A stretch of DNA of 13,878 bases from Nitrospinota bacterium (GTDB lineage Bacteria; Tectomicrobia; Entotheonellia; J063), in NCBI GenBank assembly GCA_003696125.1, contig RFHZ01000602.1, positions 1-13,878 on the forward strand. The letters are read 5' to 3'. Both the position numbers and the translations under genes were made by a program. Positions 1,534 to 13,673 of this stretch are shown here, in pieces. Under the pieces are notes generated by a model. That model searched no databases. It had not been told where the DNA came from and saw only the letters and a program-made list of their open reading frames with translations. Each line of letters opens with the position of its first letter. Position 1 is the stretch's first letter.

Positions 1534-3003
1534 ATGTCAACCCCCTCCCCTCCTTCACCACTCCTCCTCACCGGTGCCACCGGCTATGTCGGGGGACGCC
1601 TGCTGAAAGCCCTGGAAGCTTCAGGAAGAGCGGTTCGCTGTCTGGTGCGTCGGCCAGAGTTTCTCCAGGCTAAAGTCCCTCCCTCCACCTCCCTTGTTAC
1701 CGGAGACGTGCTGGATCGGCAGAGCCTGGTCGCGGCGATGGCCGGGGTACATACGGCCTACTACCTGATTCACTCCATGGGAGCAGGAGGTACCTTTGCA
1801 GAAGTAGACCGCCAGGCAGCACACCATTTCGGTCAGGCAGCACGCAAAGCCGCTGTGAAACGCATCGTGTACCTGGGAGGCTTGGGAGCAGCAGAGGGCT
1901 CCCTCTCCTCTCACCTCCGTAGCCGGCAGGAAGTGGGAGACATCCTGCGGCAGTCTGGTGTGCCGGTAACCGAATTTCGTGCCGGGATCGTCATCGGTTC
2001 TGGCAGCCTCTCCTTTGAGATGATACGCGCCCTGGTAGAACGATTACCGGTCATGATCACCCCGCGCTGGGTTTCTAACCCGACCCAGCCGATAGCCATC
2101 GAAGATCTGATCGCCTACCTCTTGGCCGCCTTAGACCTGGCAGGGACGGAAAACCATCTCTTTGAGATAGGGGGACCGGACCGCGTATCGTACGGGGATA
2201 TGATGCGGGAGTACGCCCGACAGCGCGGCCTGCGCCGGGTAATGCTCGCTGTGCCTCTACTCACCCCCCGTCTCTCCAGCCTCTGGCTGGGACTGGTCAC
2301 CCCGGTCTATGCCCGTATCGGACGGGCCCTCATCGAGAGCATCCGTCACCCGACGGTGGTGCGTGACGCCTCTGCGCTGCAGGTCTTCCCTGTACGGCCC
2401 ATGGGGATGCCGGAAGCGATCGAGAGAGCCCTCCATAACGAGGACAAGGCCTTTGCAGAAACCCGCTGGTCTGATTCTCTAGCGATGGCCGGAACTCCCC
2501 GTACCTGGGGAGGGATACGGTTCGGAACCCGCTTTATCGATACGCGAGAGGTACGGGTCCCCTGTCCCCCAGCCACAGCCTTTGCCCCCATCCAGCGGAT
2601 CGGCGGGGATACCGGCTGGTACTACGCCGACTTCTTGTGGCAGCTCCGTGGCTTTCTGGATCTATTGGTCGGCGGCGTGGGGTTGCGTCGGGGACGTCGC
2701 AACCCCTCAGAGGTCCGTGTGGGAGACCCCATCGATTTCTGGCGGGTCGAGGCCTTTGAACCGGAGCGACACCTGCGCCTGGTGGCAGAGATGCACCTGC
2801 CGGGCAGAGCCTGGCTCGAATTTACCGTAGAGGGAGATGAGCGGTCTTCCCGCATCCGCCAGACCGCCATCTTCGATCCGGTCGGTCTGGGGGGACAGGT
2901 GTACTGGTACGCCCTCTATCCCCTGCACCAGCTCGTCTTCGCCGGTATGCTCCAGGGCATCGCTGCCAGGGCCCTCCGACTGCAGGAGGCTCGTCTCTCC
3001 TGA
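1534..3003 (+). CDS. atypical SDR / NAD(P)-binding protein with C-terminal DUF2867 domain
   Basis: A 489-residue two-domain protein. The N-terminus is an extended/atypical SDR (NmrA-like) Rossmann fold with the dinucleotide-binding loop TGATGYVG at residues 13-20. It lacks the classical YxxxK catalytic pair at an obvious place, as usual for the NAD(P)-sensor-like branch. The C-terminus, with GGDTGWYYADFLWQLRG from residue 357, matches DUF2867, a START/SRPBCC-like fold usually fused to such SDRs. The substrate is unknown in this family, and a cytoplasmic redox or NAD(P)-sensing role is only inferred. I chose the ATG at 1534 because AGGAG at 1524-1528 lies 5 nt upstream. An upstream ATG at 1483 in frame has no ribosome binding site. 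No close operon partner: the next gene starts 182 bp on, with its own promoter. Confidence 0.88.
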   Translation: MSTPSPPSPLLLTGATGYVGGRLLKALEASGRAVRCLVRRPEFLQAKVPPSTSLVTGDVLDRQSLVAAMAGVHTAYYLIHSMGAGGTFAEVDRQAAHHFGQAARKAAVKRIVYLGGLGAAEGSLSSHLRSRQEVGDILRQSGVPVTEFRAGIVIGSGSLSFEMIRALVERLPVMITPRWVSNPTQPIAIEDLIAYLLAALDLAGTENHLFEIGGPDRVSYGDMMREYARQRGLRRVMLAVPLLTPRLSSLWLGLVTPVYARIGRALIESIRHPTVVRDASALQVFPVRPMGMPEAIERALHNEDKAFAETRWSDSLAMAGTPRTWGGIRFGTRFIDTREVRVPCPPATAFAPIQRIGGDTGWYYADFLWQLRGFLDLLVGGVGLRRGRRNPSEVRVGDPIDFWRVEAFEPERHLRLVAEMHLPGRAWLEFTVEGDERSSRIRQTAIFDPVGLGGQVYWYALYPLHQLVFAGMLQGIAARALRLQEARLS

Positions 3004-3048
3004 CCGTCTGGAGAGGGAGTTTCCCGGGTACAAGTCCCGCCCTTTCCC

Positions 3049-3077: not shown

Positions 3078-3185
3078 TTGGTGACAGACAAAAGCTCGAT
3101 CAGGGGAATCTCCTCGGCTACGTTATCGTTCAGTGTCTGGGAGAATCGATTCAGGATAAGGCACGCTGGTGAGAGAGGATCGCGC

Positions 3186-4442
3186 ATGGCCAACCAGATT
3201 AGGGTAAATGGACGCACGTATCATCTCCCCACCATCCCCACCGTGGTCATCTGTGTGGATGGCGGGGCACCGGAGTATTTTGATGATGCGTTGAGCCGGG
3301 GGCTGATGCCCAACCTGGAACGCATCATCGCGCAGGGGACCTACCTGCGGGGAGAAGGGGTCATTCCCAGCTTCACCAATCCGAACAACATCGCCATAGT
3401 CACCGGTGTGACACCGGATATCAACGGGATCTGTGGCAACTACTTCTACGACCCGGATGCCCGCAACCCGGATGGCACACGAGGGGCAGAGGTGATGATG
3501 AACGGTCCAGAGTATCTCCGCTGTGACACCATCCTGAAAGCCTTTGCCGATCACGGCCAGCGTGTGGTAGCCATCACGGCAAAAGACAAGCTGCTAGCCC
3601 TGTTCCGCCACGGCTGGCGAGGCATCGCCTTTTCTGCAGAGAAGGCGCATGAGGTAACGCGTGAACATAACGGGATAGAGAATGTCCTGGCCCTGGTTGG
3701 ACGCCCCAACCCGGACATCTATTCCGGACAGATCAGCGATTATGCCCTGGACGCAGGGGTAAGAATCCTGGAGCAGATGGGGGGAGACCTCTTCTATATC
3801 TCCCTGACCGACTATGTGCAGCACAAATACGCGCCGGGAACAGCCGGAGCCGATGCCTTTTTCCGGGCACTGGACAGACGCCTCCAGCAGTTTCACGAGC
3901 GTGGTGTGGTTCTGGCCATCACCGCTGATCACGGGATGAACGACAAGACCCGTCCGGATGGGAGCCCCAATGTGCGTTACCTCCAGACCATCCTGGATGC
4001 GGCAATCGGTCCCCATGCCCGGGTCATCCTCCCCATCACCGATCCCTATGTGGTGCATCACGGAGCTCTCGGCTCTTACGCCACCATCTACCTGCCGGTA
4101 GAACTGGTAGCAAAGGCGAAGGCGTGTTTACAGGAGATCGAGGGGATCGAGCTGGTGCTCACACGAGCAGAGGCGGTAGCACGTTTCCGTCTCCCTGCCG
4201 ACCGTATCGGAGATCTGGTGGTGCTTTCTGATGCGCACACGGTCCTGGGAGTCAGCGAAGAGTACCATGACCTGCGGCATGTCCGCGAAGGACTCCGCTC
4301 CCATGGAGGACTGCACGAGGCCGCCGTTCCCCTGATCCTGAACCGTCCCCTGCGGGAAGAATATCAGGAGCGGGTGGCCCAGGGCTTTTGCTGGCACAAT
4401 TACGACATCTTTGATTTGGCGCTCAACGGGGTGAGGTTATAG
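3186..4442 (+). CDS. phnA: phosphonoacetate hydrolase
   Basis: This 418-residue alkaline-phosphatase-superfamily enzyme would cleave the C-P bond of phosphonoacetate to acetate and phosphate, using two bound zinc ions. Sequence marks are VNGRTYHLP at the N-terminus, typical of PhnA, then CVDGG with Asp25 and FTNPNN with the candidate nucleophile Thr64. NIAIVTGVTP and GICGNYFYDP follow, then TAKDK near 131-135. The remaining metal ligands appear as Asp209 and His213, Asp248 and His249 (TADHGM), and His373 (SHGGLHE). All seven expected ligands are therefore present at family-like spacing, and activity is likely. The ATG at 3186 follows GAGAGGA at about 6 nt; a longer in-frame reading from 3078 lies inside the predicted promoter. 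The gene ends tail to tail with the small membrane gene, overlapping by 6 bp. No other phosphonate gene is nearby. Confidence 0.93.
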   Translation: MANQIRVNGRTYHLPTIPTVVICVDGGAPEYFDDALSRGLMPNLERIIAQGTYLRGEGVIPSFTNPNNIAIVTGVTPDINGICGNYFYDPDARNPDGTRGAEVMMNGPEYLRCDTILKAFADHGQRVVAITAKDKLLALFRHGWRGIAFSAEKAHEVTREHNGIENVLALVGRPNPDIYSGQISDYALDAGVRILEQMGGDLFYISLTDYVQHKYAPGTAGADAFFRALDRRLQQFHERGVVLAITADHGMNDKTRPDGSPNVRYLQTILDAAIGPHARVILPITDPYVVHHGALGSYATIYLPVELVAKAKACLQEIEGIELVLTRAEAVARFRLPADRIGDLVVLSDAHTVLGVSEEYHDLRHVREGLRSHGGLHEAAVPLILNRPLREEYQERVAQGFCWHNYDIFDLALNGVRL

Positions 4443-4786: not shown

Positions 4787-5890
4787 CTACTGCGCGAAGG
4801 TCAGCTTCTGCACTTCCGAAAAGCTCCCGTCCGTATCCGTGTTATCAAAGACCCCGATGGTGAAGGCAAACGTCTTGGAGCGATCGTCAAACTGGATATC
4901 CTCTTCTGGTGTCGCCGTCGTGAGCTTCCGCTGTACCTCGACCGTCCAGGTCTCCTCTTGTTCTAAATGTGTCGATCCGACATTGATATCGATGATGCTT
5001 CCCGAAGGATTTTCTTCAAAGATATAGGCGGGAAGGGTGGCCTCTCGATCGACAAAGGCCAGGTCAAAAGGCTCCACTTCGGAGCGATAGTAGAGCAGGA
5101 TCGGCTTTTGACCTTTCACGATAAAGAGCTTGGGGATCTTCTGCTGCACCAGGTCTACGCGAGGCATGAAACGGGGATACTTGCGCTCATCGATCCGCGT
5201 TTTGGGATTGTCTTCGTCGGTCGTGTTCGGGATCAAAAAGCTCTTTCCGCTGTCATCATGTACCCCTTGCGTATCGATGTATTGATCGAGGAGTTTGTGT
5301 ACCGGATCGGTGGTGCCGGCCGCCCAGAGCCACCGGTCCATCTTCCCCTGGCTGGTTTTAAATCCCTTGAGATGCACCTTTTGCGGCAGATCTTCCTGCT
5401 CGAAATCGGGGGAATCGATATTCCAGACCAGGCTCAGCATATCTTCAAACCCAAACGGCTCCCACTTCTCCTGGGCTTCCGTAGGCGCCTTGCCAAACTC
5501 TCCTCCCACATGCACCCGCTCCCAGGAGCCGGCCTGCCGGATGGAGTGCGAGTAGTCGGACCAGGTGAAGAGGAAGAAGATATCGGTGTCAGTATAGACC
5601 GCCTTCATCTTGATCCGGTCGCCACTATACCCCTTGACCGCGATGATATACTCCTGGGCCGCTTTCCAGGCTTCATCCGTACCCTTTCCATCCAGGGTGG
5701 GGGCGGTAGAGGCTTTGGCTACCACGATCTCCTGGGTTTTGATGACCTTCTCCTGTCTCCTCTCGGTCTGCTTTTGCGTCTCTTCTTTCTTTACTTCGCA
5801 CCCGATCAGGGACAGGCTAGAGACAAAGAAAAAAAGCAAAAGAAGAGGAAAATAATCCCTTACCCCTTTCCGAACATGACACCCATTCAT
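4787..5890 (-). CDS. lipoprotein with ethylbenzene-dehydrogenase-type haem-binding domain
   Basis: A 367-residue predicted lipoprotein. A basic N-region and the hydrophobic run LLLLFFFVSS lead to a lipobox L-I-G-C with Cys31, so it should be anchored to a membrane facing the periplasm. A charged, Gln/Lys/Glu-rich linker follows (about residues 32-57), then PTLDGKGTDEAW and VYTDTDIFFLFTWSD. The latter are typical of the EB_dh fold found in gamma subunits of ethylbenzene and related DMSO-reductase-family enzymes and in stand-alone c-type complexes, where it binds one haem b. No CxxCH motif is present. I could not assign haem ligands. It is 40 nt downstream of the ABC ATPase and so in its operon, with no molybdenum subunit nearby, which makes its redox role unclear. 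The ATG at 5890 has GGAG 9 nt upstream. Confidence 0.8.
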   Translation of the reverse strand: MNGCHVRKGVRDYFPLLLLFFFVSSLSLIGCEVKKEETQKQTERRQEKVIKTQEIVVAKASTAPTLDGKGTDEAWKAAQEYIIAVKGYSGDRIKMKAVYTDTDIFFLFTWSDYSHSIRQAGSWERVHVGGEFGKAPTEAQEKWEPFGFEDMLSLVWNIDSPDFEQEDLPQKVHLKGFKTSQGKMDRWLWAAGTTDPVHKLLDQYIDTQGVHDDSGKSFLIPNTTDEDNPKTRIDERKYPRFMPRVDLVQQKIPKLFIVKGQKPILLYYRSEVEPFDLAFVDREATLPAYIFEENPSGSIIDINVGSTHLEQEETWTVEVQRKLTTATPEEDIQFDDRSKTFAFTIGVFDNTDTDGSFSEVQKLTFAQ

Positions 5891-7428: not shown

Positions 7429-8268
7429 CTAAGGAATTGCCGTCTTCTTCTCCAGCCATTGTGAAAAGCGGGAGAGGGTGACCAGGATAATGAGATATTC
7501 TAAGGTGAGAAAGGCGTAGATCTCCGGCTGGCGCGTCTGCGTCAATGGGCCGGCAATGATCTGGAAGGCACGTCGCGTCAACTCGGCTACCCCGACAAAC
7601 GAGGCGATAGAAGAGGCTTTCACGATAATGACAAACTCACTGGTGATCGGGGGCAGCACCCGGCGAATCGCCTGCGGGAGGACGATCCGGCGCATGGTTT
7701 GCCAGCCGGACATGCCGAGAGAGCGGGCCGCTTCGATGTGTCCTCGATCGATCGATTCGATTCCGGCGCGGAACACCTCGGACATAAAGGCGGCTGCGGT
7801 GATGCTGAGGGTCAAGACCACGGCCAGATACGGATCGGTCTCTATGGGGGTAATGATCGGGGCGGCAAAGTACATCCAGAGCATCAGGGTAAAGAGGGGC
7901 ACGTTGCGGAGCACCTCCTGGTAGACTCGAATCAGGAGATGGAAAAGGAGATAGACTTTGAGCTCAATCCTCCCGATCTTTATGGTAAAGCGGGATAAAC
8001 GTAAAAAGGCGATGACTAAACCAAAGAGGATACCAAAGACGATCGAGAGGGCGGTAATCTCCAGCGTGACGGGAAATCCGGCGACCAGGTAAAGGAAGTT
8101 CGCCTTTCCCTGGGGGTCCCAGGGAGAGATGACCTCCCAGCGCCAGTGATAGCTCAGATTGGAGGCGCACCCGCTCAAGAGGAGGAGCAATCCCAGTCCC
8201 ACTCCTGCTCGCCACACCCGGTATATCCTGTCCCGTACCTGACCGATCTTCGCTCGAGGTTGCCTCAT
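7429..8268 (-). CDS. polar amino acid ABC transporter permease 2, with N-terminal lipobox
   Basis: A HisM/GlnP-type inner-membrane permease of 279 residues. The EAA loop that docks the ATPase is clear in the C-terminal half: HIEAARSLGMSGWQTMRRIVLPQ. The N-terminus is odd. A basic region (RDRIYRVWRAG) and hydrophobic stretch end in L-S-G-C with Cys34, followed by A-S-N, a textbook lipoprotein signal. A periplasmic-looking stretch (SYHWRWEVISPWDPQGK) follows before the first core helix. Both permeases share this arrangement. I chose the ATG at 8268, because AAGGA sits about 6 nt upstream; a TTG one codon earlier is possible. It lies 27 nt after permease 1, with which it is clearly paralogous, so a heterodimeric channel is likely. 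The substrate is probably an amino acid or similar acid. Confidence 0.93.
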   Translation of the reverse strand: MRQPRAKIGQVRDRIYRVWRAGVGLGLLLLLSGCASNLSYHWRWEVISPWDPQGKANFLYLVAGFPVTLEITALSIVFGILFGLVIAFLRLSRFTIKIGRIELKVYLLFHLLIRVYQEVLRNVPLFTLMLWMYFAAPIITPIETDPYLAVVLTLSITAAAFMSEVFRAGIESIDRGHIEAARSLGMSGWQTMRRIVLPQAIRRVLPPITSEFVIIVKASSIASFVGVAELTRRAFQIIAGPLTQTRQPEIYAFLTLEYLIILVTLSRFSQWLEKKTAIP

Positions 8269-8295
8269 CAAGATTCCTTTCCTACTGATGCGTGC

Positions 8296-9087
8296 TTAGG
8301 CGATCACTGTCTTCTTTTCAATCCATCGGACGCATTGGGAGAGAAGAAGTAAGAGGAAAAGGTATTCTAAAAGGAGGAAAGTATAGATCTCAAACGGACG
8401 ATAATTGAGCGTATCCAGAAAGAGGGCCTTTTGATCCAACACCCCTACTGCCAGTCCAGCCCCCAGGGCCGTGTCTTTGGTCAGCACGATGGCGTTGTTG
8501 GCCAGGGCAGGAAGCATGCGCCGGGCGGCCTGGGGAAAAACGATCCGCTTCATCGTCTGCCAGCTCGACATGCCGAGAGAACGGGCCGCTTCGATGTGTC
8601 CATGGGAGATCGATTCGATACCGGCTCGATAGATTTCGCAGACAAAGGCGCTCTCATTCAAGACAATAGAGAGGACAAGGGCCTGAAAGGCGGAAAGGGA
8701 GAGTCCCAGCAGGATCGGAGAGACATAGTACACGGCAAAGAGGAGGGCAAAGAGGGGAATATTGCGGAAGAGCTCCAGATAGATGGCGGCGATACCGTTG
8801 AACAACTTATTCTTGGTCAGCCGCATCAGGGCAACGATAAATCCCACGATCTGGGTACCGATCAGGGCGGCAATGGTTACCAGCAGGGTCCATTTCAACC
8901 CGCTCAGCATCAAGACGATATTCTTGCGTCCACCTGGAGAGATCGGGGTAAAGAGATACCAGGCCGGTGAATACTTGACCTTACCGCAACCGGCCAGAAG
9001 CAGGAGGACTACACAGGACAGAAGAAGCAGATATTTCTTTCTCGTTTGGGGGTCACCATATATTTTCTGCATGTTCGTCGTCCACAC
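8296..9087 (-). CDS. polar amino acid ABC transporter permease 1, with N-terminal lipobox
   Basis: A 263-residue HisQ/GlnP-type inner-membrane permease. The EAA loop reads HIEAARSLGMSSWQTMKRIVFPQ, almost the same as in permease 2. As in that protein, the N-terminus looks like a lipoprotein signal: RKKY, then LLLLSCVVLLLLAGC with Cys34 (numbered from the GTG at 9087), then G-K. A short periplasmic-like stretch containing ISPGGRKN precedes the first core helix. I chose GTG 9087 because GGAAG lies a few nt upstream; an ATG at 9072 has no ribosome binding site at a workable distance, and either start keeps the lipobox. It is the second gene of the operon, separated from the binding-protein gene by a strong intercistronic hairpin. 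Confidence 0.92.
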   Translation of the reverse strand: MWTTNMQKIYGDPQTRKKYLLLLSCVVLLLLAGCGKVKYSPAWYLFTPISPGGRKNIVLMLSGLKWTLLVTIAALIGTQIVGFIVALMRLTKNKLFNGIAAIYLELFRNIPLFALLFAVYYVSPILLGLSLSAFQALVLSIVLNESAFVCEIYRAGIESISHGHIEAARSLGMSSWQTMKRIVFPQAARRMLPALANNAIVLTKDTALGAGLAVGVLDQKALFLDTLNYRPFEIYTFLLLEYLFLLLLLSQCVRWIEKKTVIA

Positions 9088-12797: not shown

Positions 12798-12820
12798 CGG
12801 CCACATCTCCCCTGTGGCCG
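12798..12820 (+). promoter_or_regulatory. intercistronic hairpin between hydrolase and selenoprotein genes
   Basis: CGGCCACA (12798-12805) and TGTGGCCG (12813-12820) form a perfect 8-bp stem with a 7-nt loop, starting at the base right after the hydrolase stop codon. No U-tract follows, and the next ribosome binding site (AGGAGG, 12829-12834) begins 8 nt later. It could uncouple the two genes or stabilise the upstream message. Confidence 0.55.
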
Positions 12821-12839
12821 ACAAGCAAAGGAGGTAGGT

Positions 12840-13673
12840 ATGGCGATCGCGTATATGGAGTTGGTGAAAGAGCAGTACGTCGGGTTCCCAGACTACCGGT
12901 GGTCCGTTTATGATTCGAGTCCCTGGACTCCCCTGACCAAGCCGCTACGGGACTGCCGTGTCGCTCTTATCAGTTCGGGAGGGGTCTACCATAAGACCCA
13001 GCCCCCTTTTAACCCGGAGAAGAACGACTTAACCTTCCGTGAAATCCCCAAGGCTGTTGATCCAGCCGAACTGCTCATCTCACATGATCATTACGATCAC
13101 ACCGATGCGGAAAAGGACATCAACTGTATCTTTCCCATCGAGCGGTTCCGGGAACTGGAGGCAGAAGGGATCATCGGATCGCTGGCCGACCCGAACTATA
13201 CCTTCATGGGGCGGATCTTTAAACGCACCGCGCTCAGAGAGGAGATGACCCCGGCCCTGATCGCAAAGCTCAAAGCGCAGGAGGTCGATGTCCTCTTCCT
13301 GGTGCCGGCCTGACCTCTCTGTCATCAGTCCGTGGGACTGATCGCCCGGCAGGTAGAGGAAGCGGGGATCTGCACCGTGGCCATGAGTTCGGCCCTCGAC
13401 GTCTCCCATGCGGTCAAGGCTCCTCGTACCGTCTTCCTCAACTTCCCTCAGGGACACCAGACCGGCAAGCCGCTCGACCGTGACCTGCAGCGACGCATCA
13501 TCCTTGATGCCCTGCGCGCCCTGGAAACACTTACCGTTCCAGGGAGCATTGTGCAGCTCCCTTACCGGTGGGAAGCCGGAGAGCCCCAGTTGTGGGAACA
13601 GGAGTTGAGCCAGGGGGGGAAGTACCTGATCCCGGAAGAGACGATACGGCAGTGGTGTATCCAGCTCGACTAG
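12840..13673 (+). CDS. glycine/sarcosine/betaine reductase selenoprotein B family protein, with in-frame UGA (Sec158)
   Basis: I read this as one 277-residue selenoprotein rather than two genes. The UGA at 13311-13313 lies in frame between a first part (to residue 157) and a second part that continues without a shift. Across it the sequence is LFLVPA-U-PLCHQSVGLIARQVEEAG, which matches the family's conserved redox motif, written C/U-P-x-C-H-Q-S-V-G in homologues. Sec158 and Cys161 form a UxxC pair. Upstream, SHDHYDHTDAEKDINCIFP (from residue 81) is also family-typical. Glycine-reductase B subunits make a selenoether from an amino acid or betaine substrate; the role of this shorter stand-alone branch is not known to me. 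AGGAGG lies 5 nt before the ATG. It is downstream of the CocE-like gene and convergent with the regulator. Without readthrough the protein would stop at 157 residues and lose its redox Cys. Confidence 0.88.
13311..13342 (+). promoter_or_regulatory. bacterial SECIS element downstream of the selenocysteine UGA
   Basis: Just after UGA (13311-13313), ATCAGTCC (13324-13331) and GGACTGAT (13335-13342) form a perfect 8-bp stem with loop GUG, or a 7-bp stem with loop CGUGG. The loop begins about 19 nt after the UGA and has a G within its first two bases. Both fit the known rules for bacterial SECIS hairpins, which recruit SelB with selenocysteyl-tRNA. The element lies in coding sequence, as bacterial SECIS elements do. 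Confidence 0.8.

Follow-up and report, generated by a model that had tools for sequence, protein, structure and literature searches.

A predicted stand-alone PrdB-like selenoprotein gene with a covarying SECIS hairpin in a Nitrospinota bacterium of the Tectomicrobia

The window, i.e., the whole analysed stretch of 13,878 nucleotides from a Nitrospinota bacterium, carries on its forward strand a stand-alone gene (positions 12840–13673) predicted to encode a PrdB-like selenoprotein of 277 residues. The gene runs as 277 codons in one frame from an ATG at 12840 to a TAG at 13671–13673, and a Shine-Dalgarno-like AGGAGGT is recognisable in the sequence 4 nt ahead of the start codon (12829–12835, forward strand). 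Codon 158 is an in-frame TGA (13311–13313, forward strand), which would be read through as selenocysteine and thereby provide the first residue of a UxxC redox motif within U-P-L-C-H-Q-S-V-G, the predicted resolving cysteine being Cys161 (TGT, 13320–13322, forward strand). Under the standard code, the same stretch yields two ORFs, one of 157 aa (12840–13313) and a GTG-started one of 113 aa (13332–13673). This is the split by a standard gene caller that an earlier sequence-only reading of the window had foreseen, and the position of the UGA, the residue number, and the motif were all given exactly in that reading.

Directly 3' of the UGA lies a hairpin, ATCAGTCC-GTG-GGACTGAT (13324–13342, forward strand), in which the arms 13324–13331 and 13335–13342 form 8 of 8 standard pairs around a GUG loop. 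Counted from the UGA, the stem starts after 10 nt and the loop after 18 nt, in line with the perfect hairpin with a G-starting loop that had been placed about 19 nt downstream. The element has the features of a bacterial SECIS, a hairpin immediately following the UGA with a small apical loop containing G, and it is both conserved and covarying. Taken alone, the hairpin is weak to modest evidence; the 56-nt SECIS stretch folds no better than its shuffles (z = -0.63), and 1114 of 50000 synonymous recodings (2.2%) reach such a stem. In an Rfam search of the region, no match reached the gathering score and those returned were chance ones; comparison among relatives served to test the hairpin instead. 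An equivalent hairpin is found at equal offset, with G first in a three-base loop, in nearly all UGA-bearing relatives. Across 32 distinct sequences, 90.6% of the cells are paired, compared with 14–49% for slid structures, and changes on both sides of the stem occur in 22 cells against a shuffled mean of 6.9, a count matched by none of 500 shuffles, although kinship among sequences alone can exceed shuffles. RNAalifold, run independently, predicts the inner five pairs of the stem. The covariation can be followed at the pair formed by the first base of codon 164 (13329) and the wobble base of the Gly166 codon (13337, both forward strand), which is intact in all 33 UGA-bearing members as T-A (21), A-T (9), T-G (2), or G-C (1). 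Codon 166 encodes Gly in most members, with its third base free to vary, while residue 164 switches between Ser, Thr, and Ala. In members with Ser (G000c), Gly (G057), or Cys (G182) instead of the UGA, the equivalent pair is mismatched and the stem is absent. The window gene contributes, in this way, a clean SECIS in which the covariation of the stem runs via wobble positions that are synonymous.

The UGA itself was compared across relatives drawn from whole genomes, with 36 members aligned and 13 more distant ones added to give 49. The column is UGA in 33 of the 36 aligned members and Ser, Gly, or Cys in the rest, while Cys161 is Cys in 33 of the 36. Over all 49 relatives, which come from many bacterial families, residue 158 corresponds to UGA in 41, Cys in three, Ser in three, and Gly in two. 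Hence, the in-frame UGA aligns with Cys or Sec in homologues, including a Roseomonas homologue with Cys, as the sequence-only reading had proposed, and Ser and Gly occur in addition. Paralogues are also found within the window's own genome, one containing Sec (contig C937, UALC) and one Ser (C905, SPLC). At locus L063, the Ser paralogue (SPLC, codon TCA; 2288–3028) is located just upstream of a gene for an AhpC/TSA peroxiredoxin (3079–3597). For the two closest relatives, G358 and G229, dN/dS is 0.07/0.45 before the UGA and 0.03/0.33 after it, far below 1 on both sides, and the window protein is 58% identical to that of G358 before the UGA and 57% after it. The low dN/dS after the UGA indicates that the gene is not broken. 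A pseudogene or a sequencing error, with the UGA a real or a spurious stop, could be suspected from the single stop parting two ORFs in a fragmented MAG, yet it has next to no probability left, as the same UGA recurs in tens of genomes, including the single-contig G001 and G002, both halves are equally conserved, and a conserved UGA with a covarying SECIS refutes it in practice.

The genome also encodes the machinery needed for selenocysteine insertion. A tRNA-Sec was detected (74 bits, UCA anticodon), selA and selB share one contig, and selD is itself a selenoprotein gene with an in-frame UGA (N-terminal motif ACAGUASK), i.e., selA, selB, selC, and selD, on whose presence the earlier proposal had been made to depend, are all found. 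The assembly is a MAG of 990 contigs with 8% contamination, and the composition of the window relative to the selA/selB contig therefore matters; the values (GC 0.57 vs 0.59, tetranucleotide r 0.76) suggest linkage, although they leave it unproven. Among 30 genomes carrying the family, 27 have a tRNA-Sec above the family cut-off, and the three below it, G057, G058, and G332, have Gly, Ser, and Ser, respectively, at the Sec column. The match in G035 is barely over the cut-off (50.3 bits, 77 nt) and is weak enough that it may be another tRNA. While the hairpin would be insufficient by itself, the conserved UGA column, the covariation, the low dN/dS, and the genomic Sec machinery together make it almost certain, as far as sequence can tell, that UGA158 is decoded as selenocysteine in a single intact gene. 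The Sec/Cys pairs, SECIS covariation, purifying selection, and the four sel genes thus agree with the original suggestion of one selenoprotein gene read as two, and the split gene is recovered as a single one.

The protein was previously described as glycine-reductase-B-like, a label that fits the family but not the branch. It matches Pfam PF07355 (GRDB) with 41.3 bits, above the gathering score of 22 bits, yet the NCBIfam PrdB model TIGR04483 scores 189.8 bits (~190), compared with 56–59 bits for the GrdB, GrdF, and GrdH models, and the protein is hence PrdB-like. The protein-B cut-offs lie higher than these latter scores, at 602–800 bits for the equivalog and exception models and 65 bits for various_sel_PB. 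Similarly, the idea that the two ORFs are halves of the same family is borne out by the PrdB profile, which spans residues 27–245, but not by the Pfam match, which covers only residues 21–154. The PrdB score nevertheless stays under the equivalog cut-off of 300 bits, as does the best TIGR04483 score across 386 genomes, with the stand-alone branch ranging from ~150 to 197 bits.

Annotated PrdB proteins resemble the window protein in length, in consisting of a single domain, and in the position of Sec within UxxC followed by H[QR], and the predicted redox chemistry is the same. In the annotated PrdB of Terrisporobacter and of Enterococcus plasmids, Sec is residue 151 of 241 and identity to the window protein is 37–38%, while in Clostridium sticklandii PrdB it is residue 152 of 242 (PMC3091704), matching the Sec position of the window protein. 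However, their motif reads UGTCHR rather than UPxCHQ, and they group separately. In a tree including annotated PrdB, with GrdB as a distant outgroup and the midpoint root on the GrdB branch, annotated PrdB falls outside a 47-row clade that unites the window protein with the stand-alone relatives (96/91), within which the window protein joins G358 and G229 (99/89). On this sequence evidence, the window protein belongs to the PrdB side of the GrdB/PrdB family, in a clade that is sister to operon PrdB. Annotated PrdB genes, moreover, sit in prdA-prdB or prdC-prdA-prdB-prdD clusters, whereas the window locus has no prdA/prdC/prdD/racemase cluster; prdA, prdC, and racemase genes are absent from the window, where the neighbours are a CocE hydrolase, an amino-acid ABC transporter, and others. 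It could be argued that the protein is a genuine D-proline reductase subunit with PrdA encoded elsewhere in the genome, as the PrdB profile is by far the top match, length and Sec position fit, and PrdB has natural Cys and Sec forms. Yet the low score of the entire branch, its separation in the tree, and the missing cluster speak against this, and the only match in the genome to PF09338 is a fragment closest to GrdG, rendering a genuine PrdB highly unlikely.

Alphaproteobacterial proteins annotated as 'glycine/sarcosine/betaine reductase selenoprotein B family protein' (Roseomonas, Haematobacter) share the size and N-terminal extension of the window protein; the Roseomonas protein has CPVCHQ, the Cys form of UPxCHQ, with Cys rather than Sec and no UGA. 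At three further loci (L070, 4463–5629; L071, 5042–6235; L072, 5462–6655), a PrdB-like Sec domain is followed by a C-terminal extension of ~150 residues, and the one scanned, that of L070, gave no Pfam match. In addition, eight Terrisporobacter records of 21-kb plasmids (L135) carry the prdB gene of D-proline reductase, with prdA adjoining in the one inspected.

Upstream of the selenoprotein gene, on the same strand and 42 nt away, lies a gene encoding a CocE/NonD hydrolase (CocE_NonD, 419 bits). Between the stop codon of the hydrolase gene and the ribosome-binding site of the selenoprotein gene, a perfect 8-bp hairpin, CGGCCACA-N7-TGTGGCCG (12798–12820; z -5.3), resembles a terminator or attenuator, albeit without a T run. 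The short distance and shared strand, together with the presence in Roseomonas of a CocE/NonD gene at 2.7 kb from the Cys homologue, might point to a functional pairing, in which the selenoprotein would, for example, reduce a product of ester or amide cleavage. However, the hairpin standing between the two genes is a strong one, and the upstream gene in the closest relatives G358 and G229 encodes ClpB, with unrelated neighbours in other genomes, and such a pairing appears improbable. The neighbours in relatives include ClpB and SHMT (G358), an NAD kinase-like protein (G001), a glycosyltransferase (C937), ScpB and a pseudouridine synthase (G057), and UvrB and a cyclase (G101). Across the 36 loci compared, no recurring neighbour cluster was found outside near-identical genomes, except for two small clusters of scattered genes including ABC-transporter genes, and no functional partner emerged.

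Possible partners are, on the other hand, encoded on other contigs. The sequence-only reading had noted no visible grdA/C/D/E or prdA context, which is correct for the locus but not for the genome, as contig C950 (L054) carries a GrdC beta gene followed by that of a Sec-containing GrdA, and C930 carries a GrdE/G-type fragment, the PF09338 match mentioned above. A partner acting in trans is therefore conceivable, and the window protein could be a substrate-specific B component from whose bound substrate GrdA would take the carboxymethyl selenide, all the more since PF07355 is the B-component family. The protein shares with protein B (GrdB, GrdF, GrdH) a homologous C-terminal half and Sec at the aligned column. 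Unlike GrdB, which functions with GrdA and GrdE and has the motif UGTC or UGSC, it displays UPxCHQ, lacks the N-terminal half (profile positions 1–207), is only 27% identical, and falls short of the about 430 aa of a full-length protein B. Furthermore, 7 of 13 genomes carrying the family have no GrdA match, one of them being G043 (95% complete, Sec form), and PF09338 (PrdA/GrdE type) is likewise missing from 7 of 13 carriers, mostly draft genomes. A B component working in trans is thus unlikely, while retaining some probability.

An AlphaFold model built with 29 family rows shows a single alpha/beta domain (mean pLDDT 90.2, pTM 0.89), in which Sec158 is positioned between strand 151–155 and helix 159–174, at the N-terminus of the helix. 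Searching the PDB by sequence gave no relative, a profile search found nothing better than weak hits on designed or phosphate-loop proteins, and Foldseek found no significant match by fold. The best VIA-align match (Z 8.4) was an unrelated protein, and it was taken to reflect a common alpha/beta arrangement. For PrdB, it has been proposed that the selenolate attacks the alpha-carbon of proline bound to the pyruvoyl group of PrdA, and that the PrdB Cys resolves the resulting selenoether to a selenide-sulfide, which is reduced by PrdC (PMC3091704). In the window protein, sequence comparison shows that the hairpin at 13324–13342 and SelB guide the decoding of UGA158 and that Sec158 and Cys161 make up the UxxC redox pair. 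By analogy with the proposals for PrdB and GrdB, the selenolate may then attack a small electrophilic or oxidised substrate, after which Cys161 would resolve the selenide adduct or Se-X bond as a selenenylsulfide, to be re-reduced by a dithiol donor such as thioredoxin. The enzyme would be cytosolic and single-chained, and it probably needs no pyruvoyl subunit of its own, since no PrdA/GrdE-type partner and no PrdC adjoin the gene. A stand-alone thiol/selenol reductase or peroxidase with a substrate other than D-proline is, in our view, a fairly probable function. More tentatively, and with slightly less than even odds, it could be speculated that the UPxCHQ branch constitutes a distinct and broadly distributed selenoenzyme class with Sec, Cys, Ser, and Gly forms, which would act without a pyruvoyl partner on substrates that are neither D-proline nor glycine and would owe the label 'proline reductase' to homology alone.

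Members of this enzyme family have been encountered before. PrdB-type UxxC selenoproteins of PF07355 rank with the most abundant ones both in the Sargasso Sea survey of 2005 (42 genes, PMC1088965) and in the GOS metagenomes (235, PMC2398784). A 'proline reductase' is likewise recorded for Anaeromyxobacter and Geobacter (PMC1794560). The marine 'proline reductase PrdB' proteins resemble the window protein in belonging to PF07355, in their UxxC motif, and in occurring in Sec and Cys forms, and they are abundant in marine metagenomes (PMC1088965, PMC2398784). It is likely that they and the Anaeromyxobacter and Geobacter proteins represent the same stand-alone branch. For Entotheonella and Tectomicrobia, no reports on the stand-alone PrdB-like branch were found in the literature. 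The enzyme family is thus already known from marine metagenomes, and the window gene is a further member. The 'PrdB' of metagenome surveys may extend to a large branch that lies apart from the D-proline reductase cluster, and if the branch is indeed the same, it would be among the commoner bacterial selenoproteins of those surveys.

Other genes in the window include one for a phosphonoacetate hydrolase, PhnA (3078–4442; 515 bits vs the TIGR02335 cut-off of 407), and, on the reverse strand, one whose product has a haem-binding domain of the ethylbenzene-dehydrogenase type (EB_dh; 4787–5890). Two amino-acid ABC permeases are encoded at 7429–8271 and 8296–9087 (reverse strand), and the N-termini of both resemble lipoprotein signal peptides (LLLLSGC and LLLLAGC) fused to the permease domain.
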